Assembly: GCA_003644825.1 (NCBI GenBank)
Contig: QNDJ01000162.1
Coordinates: 1-5,163 of the forward strand
Direction of reading: 5' to 3'
Origin: B21-G16 sp003644825 [NCBI: Candidatus Zhuqueibacterota bacterium]
GTDB lineage: Bacteria > SM23-31 > B21-G16
Length of the DNA stretch: 5,163 bases
Shown: positions 91 through 5,163 of the stretch, piece after piece
Position numbering within the stretch: the first letter of the stretch is position 1
Layout of the letters: the number at the start of each line of letters is the position of its first letter
Program-made: the position numbers and the translations under genes
Notes under the pieces: generated by a model
Databases searched by the model: none
What the model saw: only the letters and a program-made list of their open reading frames with translations
What the model was told of the DNA's origin: nothing

Positions 91-651
91 ATGACAAAAG
101 TTGTCTTTTCAACATTTCAAGCAGCCGAATATTGTAATACAAGTTATATGTCTATAAAGAGGTGGATATTTTCAGGTAAACTTAAAGCATATAAAACACC
201 TGGTGGTCACTATAGAATACTTAAAGATGATTTACTTGACTTTATGGCGAAAAATAATATACCTGTATATGAAAATGTATTGTTAAGAAAAAGAGTATTG
301 ATTGTGGATGATGATTGTCTTGTTCGTGAAAGTATAGCAAATTTTTTAAGGTCTAACTGTTTTGGTTTTGAAGTAGCAACAGCAGAAGATGGTTTTGAAG
401 CAGGGGTTTTGGTAAGTCAGTTTTTACCAAATATAATAATTCTTGACCTTATGATGCCCAAAATGGATGGGTTTAAAGTTTGTAGGAAAATAAAAAAAAA
501 TCCACTGACTAAAAAGATAAAATTACTTGTTTTAACAGGATTTGCCGATGAAGAAAATGTAAATAAGGCTTATGAATATGGTGCAGATATGGTTCTATCA
601 AAACCTCTGGAAATGGATGAATTGCTGGATGCAATTAATTCAATAATATAA
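91..651 (+). CDS. HTH (excisionase/MerR-like) - receiver domain response regulator
   Basis: A DNA-binding response regulator of 186 residues with the HTH at the N-terminus and the receiver at the C-terminus, the reverse of the usual receiver-HTH order. Residues about 6-52 match the excisionase/BldC/MerR-like helix-turn-helix, including the RW of the recognition helix (Arg24-Trp25) and the TPGGHYRI wing (36-43), followed by DLLDFM. Residues about 68-186 are a complete CheY-like receiver: acidic pocket Asp73-Asp75, phosphoacceptor Asp119 in LDLMMPKMDG, Thr149 and Lys171 (SKP). All catalytic positions are present, so it should be phosphorylatable. The ATG at 91 is the only start that keeps the whole HTH, yet no Shine-Dalgarno sequence precedes it. 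It is first in a three-gene operon, 8 bp from the kinase gene, which is its likely phosphodonor. Domain assignment is firm. The target DNA is unknown; the tandem repeats just upstream are a candidate site. Confidence 0.93.
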   Translation: MTKVVFSTFQAAEYCNTSYMSIKRWIFSGKLKAYKTPGGHYRILKDDLLDFMAKNNIPVYENVLLRKRVLIVDDDCLVRESIANFLRSNCFGFEVATAEDGFEAGVLVSQFLPNIIILDLMMPKMDGFKVCRKIKKNPLTKKIKLLVLTGFADEENVNKAYEYGADMVLSKPLEMDELLDAINSII

Positions 652-659
652 TATAAAAA

Positions 660-1883
660 ATGGAAAATAGCTTTAAATACAGGCTGAATGAAAACTTTAT
701 AAATGAATTTGGGGAGTTAAAACAGAAAATCTTTGAGCTTGAATCCACGATATTTGAAATAAAAAAGGTCGGTGAAAAACTTTTAAATAATCAACATATT
801 ATAGAGTATTTGCTTAACCTGCTTCCACACCCAGCAATGTTAATTAATAAATTCAGGATTGTTTTAGCTTGTAATTGTATTGTGAAAGAGATGGGTGCGG
901 TTGTTGGTGGCTTTTGCTGGTATGATTTTGGTAAAATCGAATATATATCTGAAAAGGATAAAGATTATATTAGTAAATATAATAAAATACCACCTTATGG
1001 TTGTCATTGTAAATTTTGTTTAGCTGATAAGGCTCTTGAAAGTAATAAACTAACCACCAACCATGAGATAAAAGCCTTTGGGAAAATTTGGGATACATAC
1101 TGGATACCATTGAACAAAGATATATATCTTCGATACTCTATTGATATTACTGAGTATAAAAAGGCAGAAGAAGAATTAAATGTGTTCAGAAAACATATTC
1201 AGCAATCTGAAAAATTGGCTGCTGTTGGAAAACTTACTGCCAGTATAGCTCATGAAATAAATAATCCTCTTCAGGCAATTTCGGCAAATATAGGGTTCTT
1301 AATAAGTGCTCTGCCGGAAAATTTTCAGGAAAAAAGCAGTATTGAACAGATAAAAATTGGTGTGAGCAGAATAAAAGACACAGTAAAACAGCTTCTTGAT
1401 GTATATCGCTCTAAAACCAGCATTCTCGAAAGAGTGGATGTAAATATGGTTATTGAATCTACACTGGAACTGTTGAAAAATCAATTGATAATAAATAAGA
1501 TTGAAGTAAAAAAAAAATTAACAGCAAATATTCCGTTAATAATCGGCTCCAGGCAGGAGTTGCACCAGGTTTTTATGAATCTTATTATGAATGCACAGGA
1601 TGCAATGGAAAGTGGAGGAGTGCTTGAAATTACTACTAAAGTAAAAGACAATAATTTACAGATAATTTTTAAAGATAATGGTTGTGGTATATCAGAATCG
1701 GATATAAAACATATTTTTGAACCTTTTTATACAACTAAATCAAACGTATTTGGAACAGGATTGGGACTATCCATATCAAAAGGCATAATTGAAAATTTTG
1801 GTGGAAGAATTAATGTAAAAAGTAAATTAGGGGAAGGAACTACCTTTACAATAATTTTTCCATTGGTACAGAAGAATTTTTAA
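660..1883 (+). CDS. Cytosolic PAS-domain sensor histidine kinase with Cys-rich sensor
   Basis: A 407-residue hybrid-less histidine kinase of the NtrB/AtoS-like HisKA class. It has no transmembrane segment or signal peptide, so it should sense an intracellular cue. In order: a charged, probably coiled-coil helix (about 12-48); a PAS-like domain (about 50-166, ending in the typical IDITEYKKAEEEL junction); a HisKA dimerisation domain with H-box SIAHEINNPLQAI (His198); and a complete ATPase domain with N-box (Asn307 and Asn311), G1 box DNGCGI (339-344), F-box FEPFYTTK (353-360) and G2 box GTGLGLS (365-371). Autophosphorylation on His198 is therefore expected. The PAS region holds six cysteines (71, 73, 86, 115, 117, 120), with a C-x-C-x2-C cluster that could bind a metal or cofactor or act as a redox switch; this is inference. 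The start at 660 lacks a Shine-Dalgarno sequence and lies 8 bp after the preceding stop. The gene contains an A10 run at 1508-1517. Confidence 0.95.
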   Translation: MENSFKYRLNENFINEFGELKQKIFELESTIFEIKKVGEKLLNNQHIIEYLLNLLPHPAMLINKFRIVLACNCIVKEMGAVVGGFCWYDFGKIEYISEKDKDYISKYNKIPPYGCHCKFCLADKALESNKLTTNHEIKAFGKIWDTYWIPLNKDIYLRYSIDITEYKKAEEELNVFRKHIQQSEKLAAVGKLTASIAHEINNPLQAISANIGFLISALPENFQEKSSIEQIKIGVSRIKDTVKQLLDVYRSKTSILERVDVNMVIESTLELLKNQLIINKIEVKKKLTANIPLIIGSRQELHQVFMNLIMNAQDAMESGGVLEITTKVKDNNLQIIFKDNGCGISESDIKHIFEPFYTTKSNVFGTGLGLSISKGIIENFGGRINVKSKLGEGTTFTIIFPLVQKNF

Positions 1884-1895: not shown

Positions 1896-2957
1896 ATGGA
1901 AAAGTTTAATGAAAATATTCTTATTGTTGAAGATGATGTTCAGGTGCTTATGAGTTTTGAAAGGATATTGAAAAAAGATGGATATAATATCACAGCTGTT
2001 GACAGTGGAAACAAAGCATTAAACTTTTTAAAAAAACAAAAATATGACCTTGTACTTGCAGATATTATAATGAAAGGGATTGATGGGCTTCAAATTTTAG
2101 AGGAAACTAAAAAGATTTCACCTGAAACAGCTGTAATTCTTGTAACTGGTTACAGTTCTATGGAAACAGTGATTGATGCATTAAGGAAGGGTGCTGTTGA
2201 TTACATTTTGAAACCCTGTGATGAAGAGGAGTTGAGATTACGAATAAAAAAAGCCTTAGACAGGCAAAAACTTGAACAGGGAGCTTTAAAAGCTGAAGAA
2301 TATAAAAAAATATCTGAAACCCTTGGAGCAATATCTCATGAATTAAATAATCCATTGACTGCAATAATCGGGAATGTGGAACTTATGACTTTAGATTTAC
2401 CGGAGAATCATCCTGCATTTGAAAAGCTTAAAGTGATAGAGAGTTCAGCAGAAAAAATGGCTGAAATTATACAAAAAATGAGGGATATTAAAGGTATTGA
2501 GAGAAAAAAGTATACAAAAGATTCAAAAATAATAGATATTCAAAAGAGCAGTAAATTCAGAAAGCCCGACGCCGGAACAATTTTAATAGTTGATGACGAT
2601 GTTGCAATAACAAAATTGTATTCAAATATCCTTAAAAACTGTGAGTATAAAGTGGATGCTGTTAATAGCGGTTTTGAAGCTTTAGACGCAATAAAGAAGA
2701 AAAATTATTCTATTGTGATTCTGGATGTTAGTATGCCTGAAATGGATGGATATGAAACTTTACAAAAAATAAGTGAATATTATTCCAGAAAAAGGATTCA
2801 ATTGCCTGCAACAATTATGATTACAGGTTTTGATGTTGAAGGTATATTGCAAAAATGTAAAAACAAAGGTGCTTTTGCTGCTCTGCATAAACCTTTGAAA
2901 AATAAGGTGTTAATTGAAACTGTAAAAGAGGCAGAAAAATTTATAAAAAGAAATTAA
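1896..2957 (+). CDS. Receiver-HisKA-receiver phosphorelay protein lacking an ATPase domain
   Basis: A soluble 353-residue signalling protein. Residues about 6-122 are an NtrC/AtoC-like receiver (Glu12, Asp13, Asp14; phosphoacceptor Asp56; Thr84; Lys106), in which the usual Pro after the DxxM segment is replaced by Lys60. Residues about 137-205 form a HisKA-type helical hairpin with an intact H-box, ISHELNNPLTAI (His148). Residues about 227-350 are a second complete receiver (Asp233-Asp235; Asp277 in LDVSMPEMDG; Thr310; Lys332). Only about 20 residues separate HisKA from the second receiver, so the roughly 110-residue ATPase domain is absent and no N, G1, F or G2 box is visible. It cannot be an autonomous kinase. 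It may work as a histidine phosphotransfer or phosphatase module, or be phosphorylated in trans by the kinase encoded 12 bp upstream. There is no DNA-binding or enzymatic output domain. Its stop codon overlaps that of the convergent lipoprotein gene. Confidence 0.93.
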   Translation: MEKFNENILIVEDDVQVLMSFERILKKDGYNITAVDSGNKALNFLKKQKYDLVLADIIMKGIDGLQILEETKKISPETAVILVTGYSSMETVIDALRKGAVDYILKPCDEEELRLRIKKALDRQKLEQGALKAEEYKKISETLGAISHELNNPLTAIIGNVELMTLDLPENHPAFEKLKVIESSAEKMAEIIQKMRDIKGIERKKYTKDSKIIDIQKSSKFRKPDAGTILIVDDDVAITKLYSNILKNCEYKVDAVNSGFEALDAIKKKNYSIVILDVSMPEMDGYETLQKISEYYSRKRIQLPATIMITGFDVEGILQKCKNKGAFAALHKPLKNKVLIETVKEAEKFIKRN

Positions 2958-4957
2958 TCATTTACAAGCCTGTAAAGTTTTTTCCCCGCGCAGATAAAAA
3001 TATTACCCACAGGGTCTTTGTATATAAAGTCAGTGTAATTTTTTTCTTCTCTTTTAAGTAGAGGGGTAAACTCGTTTGAATTTTTATCTATCAGTAAAAG
3101 GTTTTTTGTTGATAGGGCATAAAAGTTTCCTTTATTGTCTTCGACTAAATCAAGTAAATCACCAAATTTTGAATTCCTGTTAAGTATTAACTTTTTATTC
3201 AAAATATCCACTGCAAAAAGGGTTGAATCTGCTGCTCCGTAAAGAATATTCTTGCTCAATTTATACAGACATCGAATCTTTTTTGCGTTCTTTACGGGTA
3301 TAATATCAAGGATTTTTTTGTTTTTTTCATAGTCCCATAATATTAAGTGAGCCTGATCTTTAGATTTTTCTTTTTCGGTTCCAGCAATTATTAAATCTTT
3401 ATTACCAAAAATAAATGTATTTATTTTTTGATTGCTTTTGAAGACCGATGTGATTTTAGTATTTTCCCCATTTATATTAATTTTAAAGATTTGATTTAGA
3501 GCAGGGTAGGTTGTAAAATATAAGTTATTATCGGTTCCTTTTATCATTCTACCTATTCCTTCACCCTTTGATATAGTAAATACACTTTCAGGATTATTGC
3601 TATGATTTTTTCCTGGATTCCAGATTAGAGAAGGGTCATATCTCAGGATGTTTTTACTATCACTGAATGTTATATAAAGGAATTTATTATAAGATATAAG
3701 ATTGTTTACATTACGTCCTTCATAGAGAAACTTTCCCAGGTCAGTTAATTTGTCTTTTGCAGGATTATAAGAAAAAAGATGAGGATTGCTTATACAGGTT
3801 CCATATAATATCTGGTCTGGTCCTTTGCATAGAGTATTAATTTTTTCTCCACCATCCAGAAAATATAGTCTTCTTTTTATGATAACCCTTGATTTTACTT
3901 TATCTACAATATTTAGTTCATTAAAATTAGTAAGGCAAAAGAAATACCTCTGGTCAATTACTCCGAACGGCATACCATATTTTTTTGACCGTTGTAGCCA
4001 GTCGTTACTTAAATACCGATATTGATAGATATAATTTTTAGGAATAAAACCTAAATATGCATCGAAGGCATCTGGAACAATGTATTGAGATATAAGAGAA
4101 GGGATGTATGTATCTATTTCAGGTGTTTCAGGTTCTTTTTCAATTTTTCTCCTGTAAGGGTTGATTACAATGAGCCTTCCAGCAGGATATAATGTAGCAA
4201 TTATTCTATCACCAACTCTTGTCATATTTTCAAAGGAGCCGTTATTTTTATATTTAATAATCATTTTGAATTTTTTGGAAATTAAATCATATTCATATAT
4301 TTTTGCTCCAGGAAAGGTAGAAATATATAGTTTATCACCAAAAGTTCCCAGTAAACTGGTTATTTTTATTTCATTATCATCTATATTTCCTATATAGGTT
4401 AAAATATTCCTTCTTGTGTTATAGGAGAAAAGATGGGCTCCCGGGGAAACTCCGATGTATAATTGTCTGTCGGTTGCAAATGTCATTGCCCATATACAAC
4501 CAGCGTTGGTTAAATTACCATATTTGTCTTTATATTCAAACTTTACGTTGAGATTTTGTAGTAATTTTGTTTTCAGGTCATATTTAAATAAATTTGCTTT
4601 AATAGATGTTCCTATATATAGGCTTTTATAACCTTCCTGAGCAAAAGCACCTATTCTTTTTGAGCCTTCCAGTAAGAAGCTATTACTCAGAAGATTTATT
4701 GGATTATATGTAAAAATTCGGGCGTATTTTGTAACATCGCTGCTTAATATAACTTCAGTATCAATGCCCCTGTCGATATCGGTTACAAAAGCCTTTCTAA
4801 ATGAAATACCATCACAGGGATTTCCAATATATTCCAGCTTAATTTCAGGAAGTGATGTATAAATTATTGATTTTTTTCTTGTACTATTTCTTTCCTTACT
4901 ACAGTTAAAGATTAAAAGTAAAGTAATAATAATGGTTACCAATCCCTTATTTTTCAT
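2954..4957 (-). CDS. Lipoprotein with multiple beta-propeller-like repeats
   Basis: A 667-residue predicted lipoprotein of unrecognised specific function. The N-terminus has a short basic stretch (Lys2, Lys4), a hydrophobic core (about 6-18) and Cys19 in LIFNCS. This is a non-classical lipobox with Asn at -1; Ser at +2 would not signal inner-membrane retention in a proteobacterial Lol system. The mature protein consists of about ten or eleven degenerate repeats of roughly 45-60 residues with the core LY-[IG]-[GT]-x4-[AH]-x-LF-x-Y-[DN]. The clearest are LYIGTSIKANLFKYD (113-127), LYIGVSPGAHLFSYN (166-180), LYISTFPGAKIYEYD (210-224) and LYGTCISNPHLFSYN (384-398). Such repeats form beta-propeller blades, and the number suggests two propellers or one large one. 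No catalytic motif is visible, so a binding or scaffold role outside the cytoplasm is likely. Start: ATG with GGAGAA 6 bases upstream. It follows a TolB-like gene by 13 bp and is probably co-transcribed with it. Confidence 0.88.
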   Translation of the reverse strand: MKNKGLVTIIITLLLIFNCSKERNSTRKKSIIYTSLPEIKLEYIGNPCDGISFRKAFVTDIDRGIDTEVILSSDVTKYARIFTYNPINLLSNSFLLEGSKRIGAFAQEGYKSLYIGTSIKANLFKYDLKTKLLQNLNVKFEYKDKYGNLTNAGCIWAMTFATDRQLYIGVSPGAHLFSYNTRRNILTYIGNIDDNEIKITSLLGTFGDKLYISTFPGAKIYEYDLISKKFKMIIKYKNNGSFENMTRVGDRIIATLYPAGRLIVINPYRRKIEKEPETPEIDTYIPSLISQYIVPDAFDAYLGFIPKNYIYQYRYLSNDWLQRSKKYGMPFGVIDQRYFFCLTNFNELNIVDKVKSRVIIKRRLYFLDGGEKINTLCKGPDQILYGTCISNPHLFSYNPAKDKLTDLGKFLYEGRNVNNLISYNKFLYITFSDSKNILRYDPSLIWNPGKNHSNNPESVFTISKGEGIGRMIKGTDNNLYFTTYPALNQIFKININGENTKITSVFKSNQKINTFIFGNKDLIIAGTEKEKSKDQAHLILWDYEKNKKILDIIPVKNAKKIRCLYKLSKNILYGAADSTLFAVDILNKKLILNRNSKFGDLLDLVEDNKGNFYALSTKNLLLIDKNSNEFTPLLKREEKNYTDFIYKDPVGNIFICAGKKLYRLVND
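2961..2983 (+). terminator. Candidate intrinsic terminator of the signalling operon
   Basis: TTTACA (2961-2966) and TGTAAA (2971-2976) form a 6-bp stem around an AGCC loop. A G and six T residues (2978-2983) follow, all within 26 bp after the stop of the last + strand gene. The layout is right for a rho-independent terminator, but the stem is short and has one G-C pair, so it would be weak. It lies inside the coding sequence of the convergent gene (its last few codons), so the same bases serve both purposes. Confidence 0.42.
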
Positions 4958-4970: not shown

Positions 4971-5163
4971 TTAGTTTAATTTTCTGGTATTAAAAATATT
5001 TTCTACATCTTTTGTTTTAAGTAGATATATATCATAATTACCGGTTTTTCTTGAGGCGAACACTATATAATTACCGTTCTGAGAAAAGTGATGGTATGGC
5101 CCATTCATAATATATTCTATTATTTTTAAGGAAGTTATATTTCCATTTACTTTTGATATAAAG
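4971..5163 (-). CDS. 3' end of a TolB/PD40-like beta-propeller protein (partial)
   Basis: The reverse strand is open from the window edge to a TAA at 4971-4973, giving the last 63 residues of a protein whose start lies outside the window. The segment GPYHHFSQNGNYIVFASRKT followed by GNYDIYLL is a classic TolB/WD40-like (PD40) blade: a Ser-x-(N/D)-G turn, a buried strand, then (N/D)-x-D-(I/L)-(Y/W). In full-length relatives several such blades form a periplasmic or secreted propeller. The final 15 or so residues are charged and unremarkable. The gene ends 13 bp before the lipoprotein ATG in the same orientation, and no promoter-like sequence fits in the gap, so the two are likely one operon. 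The pairing of two propeller proteins suggests a shared envelope role, but the function cannot be stated from this fragment. Confidence 0.8.
   Translation of the reverse strand, partial: FISKVNGNITSLKIIEYIMNGPYHHFSQNGNYIVFASRKTGNYDIYLLKTKDVENIFNTRKLN

Follow-up and report, generated by a model that had tools for sequence, protein, structure and literature searches.

Introduction

Archaeoglobus fulgidus proteins with the architecture of histidine kinases and no HATPase domain were noted in 2005 (PMC1183210). In 2018, "nonenzymatic HK-like proteins" were described, for which phosphotransfer or phosphatase roles were suggested and the role was left open (PMC5847659). Proteins of the "HisKA, no HATPase" type combine a HisKA domain bearing the histidine with a sensor or receiver (REC) input, as in the archaeal AF_1472, which joins REC, PAS/GAF, and HisKA. 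In archaea, HisKA proteins without an ATPase domain are often labelled histidine kinases, and for those with a REC domain the 2018 authors knew of no experiments (PMC5847659). The "phosphotransfer proteins" of the P2CS database, a HisKA/HPT class free of receivers, take in HisKA proteins that have no HATPase (PMC2716373). The kind is already known and uncharacterised. Despite kinase or response-regulator labels, such proteins cannot make their own phosphate.

Several systems resemble P0001, the protein analyzed here. LvrB (PDB 8vc9) has the same order of REC, long helix, and HisKA hairpin but also has an ATPase domain. REC-controlled kinases are reported to prefer heptad-based REC-to-DHp linkers, and in LvrB the REC domain drives the DHp helices (PMC13269768). 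In the pair Spo0F and Spo0B, a REC domain and a kinase-derived hairpin stand between the kinase and the final receiver, whereas in P0001 REC and hairpin form a single protein that also has a second REC and shares an operon with an HTH_17-REC protein. Spo0B is a precedent, by analogy, for how P0001 might work and not its family. ChpT, a further relative of kinases, retains a degenerated ATPase domain. PhyT, with Spo0B and ChpT named alongside, is a precedent for kinase-derived phosphotransferases; PhyT and ChpT are described as arising from degenerate histidine kinases, and PhyT retains a degenerated ATPase domain that is absent from P0001 (PMC5898713).

P0001 falls within the "HisKA, no HATPase" definition, as it has the conserved His and no recognisable HATPase (PMC5847659). 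Its distinguishing features are a short conserved tail behind the hairpin, a characteristic REC-to-hairpin register, and a REC-HisKA-REC arrangement, none of which is mentioned in the accessible descriptions of the archaeal and P2CS classes. In the open-access literature searched, we found no description of the REC-HisKA-REC form, of the register, or of the tail signature and its spread in bacteria.

The operon and its REC-HisKA-tail-REC protein

The window, 5,163 nucleotides long, is the whole of contig C162 of G000, a draft genome of 493 contigs that is 84% complete. Its + strand carries three tightly spaced genes, for an HTH_17-REC protein, a sensor kinase, and the REC-HisKA-REC protein, and a convergent ORF comes next. 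The first gene (91..651) encodes a 186 aa protein identified by Pfam, with a 64% identical protein at the matching place in genome G002; we presume that it is the DNA-binding output of the operon. HTH_17 precedes REC both here (91-651) and in the G002 orthologue (L119:3878-4444), the reverse of the usual order. The adjoining sensor kinase (660..1883) has Pfam matches to HisKA (residues 190-251) and HATPase_c (residues 298-403; about 1551-1868), and matching kinases lie beside a P0001-type gene in two other genomes. A preliminary description of this DNA called it a PAS kinase; Pfam gives no PAS domain at E up to 1, and the G002 orthologue has two. The P0001 gene (1896..2957; 353 aa), assigned by ORF, Pfam, and AlphaFold2 model, opens with ATG 12 nt past the stop of the kinase gene, with AGAGG at 1884-1888.

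Pfam found Response_reg in two stretches of P0001 (1.1e-54 for the protein) and HisKA (PF00512) at residues 140-198 (1.7e-12). REC1 (residues 8-117; 1917..2246; Pfam, PDB sequence search, and AlphaFold2 model) carries the phosphoacceptor D56 (2061-2063). Its closest solved structures in the PDB sequence search were NtrC-type receivers, and Spo0F chains were among the matches listed. A connecting helix (2247..2312; AlphaFold2 model and spacing measure), with 42 residues from K106 to H148, leads into the HisKA hairpin (residues 140-198; 2313..2489; Pfam, alignment, and AlphaFold2 model), which contains the phosphoacceptor H148 (2337-2339), E149, and, at H+4, N152. Behind it lies the tail, KKYTKDSKIIDIQKSSKFR (residues 204-222; 2505..2561), which profile, alignment, and pattern counts mark as diagnostic of a HATPase-less group. 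REC2 (residues 228-352; 2577..2951), the second Response_reg stretch with limits taken from the AlphaFold2 model, carries the phosphoacceptor D277 (2724-2726). Sequence and Pfam thus bear out the REC-HisKA-REC order and the three acceptors, D56, H148, and D277, of the preliminary description. The receiver partner residues D13/D14, T84, and K106, and D233/D234, T310, and K332, are also present, and all eleven acceptor and partner residues are invariant across the three full-length members, P0001, L009, and L011.

An AlphaFold2 monomer model (32 rows, mean pLDDT 87.8, pTM 0.53) predicts a REC domain, an unbroken helix from 110 to 167 bearing H148, a helix from 173 to 205, and a second REC domain at 228-352; residues 205-223 have pLDDT below 50. 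The preliminary description had reported no ATPase domain and pointed to residues 205-227 as the place where a cryptic one might lie. The Pfam scan listed 10 families for P0001 at E up to 1, none of them HATPase, and no ATPase fold appears in the model. An ATPase concealed in residues 205-227 is ruled out to the extent that sequence and one monomer model allow.

Compared with a histidine kinase, P0001 has the HisKA domain with its phosphoacceptor His and lacks HATPase_c after HisKA; compared with a hybrid histidine kinase, it has the C-terminal receiver, REC2, and an incomplete kinase core. Spo0B families are missing from the Pfam list for P0001 (10 families, E up to 1), as are the two that would mark an Hpt or ChpT protein, Hpt (PF01627) and HPTransfase (PF10090). 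The labels histidine kinase, Spo0B, and Hpt protein are all unsuitable for P0001.

Relatives in the class of the window

We compared six genomes of the class, including that of the window. Five P0001-type genes are known, over three families: the one in the window, L009, L010, L011, and L012. Full-length orthologues (52-55% identity to P0001) occur in a second family, and a third family has partial or split copies. In G003, L009 (contig C294; 55%) lies immediately downstream of a kinase, and L011 (52%) has no kinase within 10.7 kb. In G002, L010 is 61% identical over 243 residues, where its contig ends, has no kinase nearby, and has Leu in place of T84. The other G002 gene, L012 (contig C192), is 62% identical over the REC-HisKA part, and the gene before it encodes a kinase with a pair of PAS domains. 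In L012 (L119:6204-7234), a linker deletion and a frame change remove the tail and leave REC-HisKA and REC2 as separate overlapping frames; T84 is Ser, the Asn residues at H+3 and H+4 are Ser, and Lys332 of REC2 is Arg. Decay or splitting may be under way in this copy. The remaining three class genomes (63-79% complete) contain no P0001-type gene at E up to 1e-40.

A same-strand kinase lies directly upstream of three of the five genes (the window, G003:C294, and G002:C192), and the order HTH_17-REC, kinase, REC-HisKA(-REC) is repeated in G002, with identities of 64%, 46%, and 62%. At G003:C294 the contig ends inside the kinase gene, and the comparison there covers the kinase and REC-HisKA-REC genes.

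No HATPase was found in the four nearest relatives (L009, L010, L011, and L012), which rules out recent loss of that domain. The preliminary description had argued against decay and proposed a search for homologues, both with the same order beside a kinase and with a HATPase lost here. Its argument holds: none of the acceptors is lost, and in two other families a P0001-type gene comes after a kinase, in full order as L009 and in split form as L012, beside the two-PAS kinase. Thus, the P0001 architecture is old and not a product of decay.

The best-scoring HATPase-bearing relative, L002, is a paralogue encoded in the same genome (39% identity over residues 3-197). This protein (L002:1504-2550; G000:C331), directly downstream of its own sensor kinase, consists of REC, a hairpin-like stretch, and HATPase_c (8e-16); it has no HisKA match and no His at the H-box position, a loss that mirrors that in P0001. 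L002 might phosphorylate a His-bearing partner in trans. In L100 (1462-2178; G003:C14), also directly downstream of a sensor kinase, REC gives way to a stretch that lacks both a His motif and a HATPase match, which we regard as a further stage of loss. A candidate for another REC-HisKA protein, on G000:C63, was rejected, as in the available part REC is followed by other sequence with no H-box.

A conserved tail and its spread

The preliminary description took the roughly 20 residues between hairpin and REC2, KKYTKDSKIIDIQKSS, for a clean junction. Instead, this gap holds a motif conserved far beyond the genome of the window, and P0001 belongs to a widespread HATPase-less HisKA group marked by this short tail, a membership that the preliminary description overlooked along with the earlier "HisKA, no HATPase" literature (PMC1183210, PMC5847659, PMC2716373). 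A similar tail forms the C-terminal end of two related REC-HisKA proteins, L098 (G001) and L014 (a Desulfobacteraceae MAG). Read from position in the sequence, the tail would correspond to the linker and first ATPase-domain residues of ordinary kinases.

We built a profile, A3, of hairpin plus tail from seven rows; P0001, itself one of the rows, scores 140 bits over the full length (1-90). At E up to 1e-18, and with at most 13 candidates scored per genome, A3 matches occur in at least 29 of 386 genomes, five of the window's class and at least 24 of 380 outside it; the class supplied most of the profile as well as those five positive genomes. Matches were also present at 1e-14 in at least four of the nine genomes behind named loci, including Desulfobacter vibrioformis, and at 1e-16 in at least 21 of the 64 genomes searched from one further phylum, where a single genome gave as many as nine listed matches. 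From these we assembled 44 module proteins: 15 from the class, chosen by short frame or tail coverage and so not an unbiased sample; 24 from outside, which are all the new loci among the 31 matches listed there; and five from the named-loci genomes. A second set consists of the 29 new loci among 51 matches listed in the further phylum (64 genomes).

The reading frame stops no more than 36 residues past the A3 match in 37 of the 44 proteins. The seven longer frames are P0001, L125 (= L009), L129 (= L011), L124 (= L010, at a contig end), L135 (= L104), L165, and L170, a long protein. In L165 (922-2073, - strand), an HD_5 domain follows HisKA-tail, so the module can precede another output domain. 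L104 (1384-2436; G003:C209) has no first receiver, and its HisKA-tail is followed by a degenerate receiver-like stretch that a purpose-built profile matches and Pfam at 1e-3 does not.

A Pfam scan of 30 module proteins (E up to 1e-3) gave HisKA in 29 and HATPase_c in none. Purpose-built profiles detected HATPase in 0/42 and 0/29 proteins (0/71 together); the 42 omit two of the 44, L180 and L181, which have internal stops, and the result for L170, whose frame continues beyond the sequence examined, covers the examined part. Locus or contig ends truncate several proteins, among them L124, L155, L160, L162, L170, L173, and L175. As nothing in the profile demands it, HATPase absence is not built into the A3 set, and 56 of the 71 checked proteins (27/42 plus 29/29) were not selected on frame length.

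Presence of the His and the tail is partly built in by the A3 profile, and the counts that follow are to be read with this in mind. The His is present in 73/73 module proteins (44 + 29), Glu follows it at H+1 in 69 and is missing in four, and H+4 is Gln or Asn in 71, with Gln in 45. A loose test finds the tail Tyr in 70/73; L142 and L197 have no tail, and L196 has no tail Tyr. In a 40-row alignment, which omits L130, L142, L180, and L181, His and tail Tyr are invariant (40/40) and the tail Asp is present in 37/40. As controls, we used 149 HisKA-HATPase kinases taken from the loci examined. A loose tail pattern matched 42/44 module proteins and one of the 149 kinases; a strict pattern matched 32/44 and none. 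The tail signature tells HisKA-tail proteins from true kinases by sequence, which would serve annotation at scale, and points to the His, tail Tyr, and tail Asp as residues for mutation. A relative in a named species, the REC-HisKA-tail protein HRM2_RS25730 of Desulforapulum autotrophicum, is annotated "response regulator."

We also asked how the module relates to known families. In a hairpin-only tree (tail excluded; 42 module rows, 63 of 146 candidate kinases, 74 columns), the tail rows all lie beyond one branch with SH-aLRT 77. They cluster partly by selection, because the profile used to find them included the hairpin, and given this effect and the support of only 77 we do not count a single origin of the group as shown. 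Among the best 25 NCBIfam models for each of eight module proteins, only a PAS domain model reaches its cut-off; LvrB is the top match, under cut-off, for three of the eight. LvrB (8vc9) is also the best PDB match to the module profile, covering positions 2-68 and not the tail. No PDB chain listed with a strong score reaches the end of A3, and some PDB kinases reach positions 84-86 at weaker scores.

Spacing between receiver and hairpin

We measured the distance from the receiver KP Lys to the His where the receiver ends no more than 60 residues from the His (23 proteins). The pattern took another Lys in six cases and none in two, and these eight were excluded. In the 15 with a true KP, which come from several genome families, the spacing is 42 in 14 and 56 in one; this measure is post hoc and covers few lineages. 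The value is 42 in every one of the five P0001-type proteins, whose linker is therefore constrained. In contrast, 18 of the 23 control REC-HisKA-HATPase proteins with spacing up to 70 have 47, 54, 61, or 68, and none has a multiple of seven, so the 42/56 register occurs in 0/23 of these short-linker kinases. Another 25 of the 48 control REC-kinases exceed 70, and four of these are multiples of seven (three of 196, one of 329). The difference in register from the P0001 type was measured on this control set. Taken with the heptad preference and REC-driven helices reported for LvrB-type kinases (PMC13269768), the fixed spacing suggests that REC1 and the hairpin are probably coupled mechanically, with a register not shared by the control kinases of similar linker length.

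Discussion

Our preferred reading, which we hold tentatively and at slightly less than an even chance, is that P0001 is a REC1-gated histidine phosphotransfer hairpin with a relay D56-H148-D277, fed by the adjoining kinase and possibly serving the HTH-REC protein too. The kinase, the natural donor for REC1, would take a phosphoryl group from ATP and pass it to D56. REC1 would then change a hairpin dimer through the fixed-register connecting helix, and H148 would exchange phosphate with D277 of REC2, the HTH_17-REC regulator, or both. The tail would perhaps cap the hairpin at the site where an ATPase domain would otherwise dock. Such a protein may have arisen from a REC-controlled histidine kinase-like ancestor whose ATPase half was long ago replaced by the short conserved tail, with the second receiver gained in the P0001 lineage.

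Since P0001 has no ATPase domain, H148 could be charged only by a phospho-receiver or by the ATPase of another kinase. The constant His suggests that the hairpin probably still does phosphoryl chemistry: the His is kept in 73/73 module proteins though 0/71 checked have an ATPase, the profile favours it, and the adjacent Glu is absent from 4/73. In CrdS, the Glu beside the His was needed only for kinase activity (PMC3510030). Also in favour of the relay, the acceptor sites are intact and conserved in three full-length members, a kinase lies upstream of 3/5 P0001-type genes, the three-gene order is kept in G002, and the 42/56 register holds in 15/15 proteins.

The relay fits less well as a general role. 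PAS, GAF, or Cache input with no REC match was found in 13 of the 30 Pfam-scanned module proteins, and a kinase part lies within flanks of about 1.5 kb of only 8/42, two of these truncated at the locus edge. In Desulforapulum autotrophicum, a gene for a HisKA-HATPase-REC-Hpt hybrid lies immediately upstream of that for HRM2_RS25730; since this hybrid already supplies an Hpt domain, the module there sits at the output place, which counts against a relay as the general role. Within the P0001 type, no kinase is near L011 or L010 (at its contig end), and residues vary in L010 and L012. The HTH-REC protein is not a universal terminal acceptor, because the G002 orthologue (L119:3878-4444) has Tyr at the phospho-Asp position.

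The main rival, which we rate as rather unlikely, is that P0001 is a REC1-regulated phosphatase whose hairpin dephosphorylates REC2, the HTH-REC protein, or the target of the neighbouring kinase through the amide at H+4. An amide is kept at H+4 (Gln or Asn, 71/73) slightly more often than Glu at H+1 (69/73), but in 45/73 it is Gln rather than Asn or Thr. As Gln at H+4 is also common in true FixL-type kinases, it is not specific to phosphatases. Asn or Thr at this position was required for phosphatase, and not kinase, activity in CrdS and three other HisKA proteins (PMC3510030), and a phosphatase role has been suggested for the archaeal "HisKA, no HATPase" proteins (PMC5847659). C. difficile PtpA and PtpB appear to be mainly phosphatases; PtpA has a HATPase domain and requires its His, so a conserved His alone cannot exclude this activity (PMC11210211). 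Output of this kind would also fit the Desulforapulum pathway, where an Hpt domain is already present. However, the degenerate kinase PhyT, at first described as a phosphatase, had no such activity and was a phosphotransferase in vitro (PMC5898713).

We think it improbable that H148 is instead phosphorylated in trans, as substrate or partner, by the ATPase of the adjoining kinase or of L002 in a mixed dimer. The kinase adjoins the gene in 3/5 P0001-type cases, and L002, in the same genome, offers REC with HATPase_c (8e-16) and no HisKA match or H-box His. However, L002 lies on a different contig downstream of its own kinase, and over residues 132-199 the identity between the hairpins of P0001 and the adjoining kinase is only 25%. 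Less probable still is that the hairpin is a mere output for dimerisation or protein contact, with the His a leftover and the protein acting by docking. Dimerisation and protein contacts have been proposed for REC-HisKA proteins lacking HATPase (PMC5847659), and relatives with no His exist (L100 and L002), but the His is present in 73/73 and the tail Tyr in 70/73 module proteins, and the profile favours both. A decayed hybrid kinase or assembly artefact, for which the draft state of the genome (493 contigs, 84% complete) and the G002 copy split in the linker might speak, is very improbable and already contradicted by orthologues in another family that are open over their full length and keep the order, and by the tail kept in many other genomes.

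With donor kinase, hairpin, and acceptors all in one operon, the window makes a simple test case. A broader proposal, which we put forward with more doubt than the relay itself, is that HisKA-tail proteins form one ancient and widespread non-kinase signalling class, in which a tail of about 20 residues replaced the ATPase domain and turned the hairpin into an independent phosphotransfer unit under the control of its input. P0001 would be its most complete form, with D56, H148, and D277 in one chain and thus the whole relay minus the ATP step.

A tRNA scan of the window found none, and promoter-like sites (33 vs 29.2 expected) and terminator-like sites (0 vs 2.2) gave nothing usable. The convergent 667-aa ORF (2954-4957, - strand) shares the last four bases of the P0001 gene; by eye it has a lipoprotein-like start, and its beta-propeller matches are sub-threshold only. 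At the contig end, a fragment on the - strand (4971-5162) contains a PD40 beta-propeller repeat (1.6e-05).
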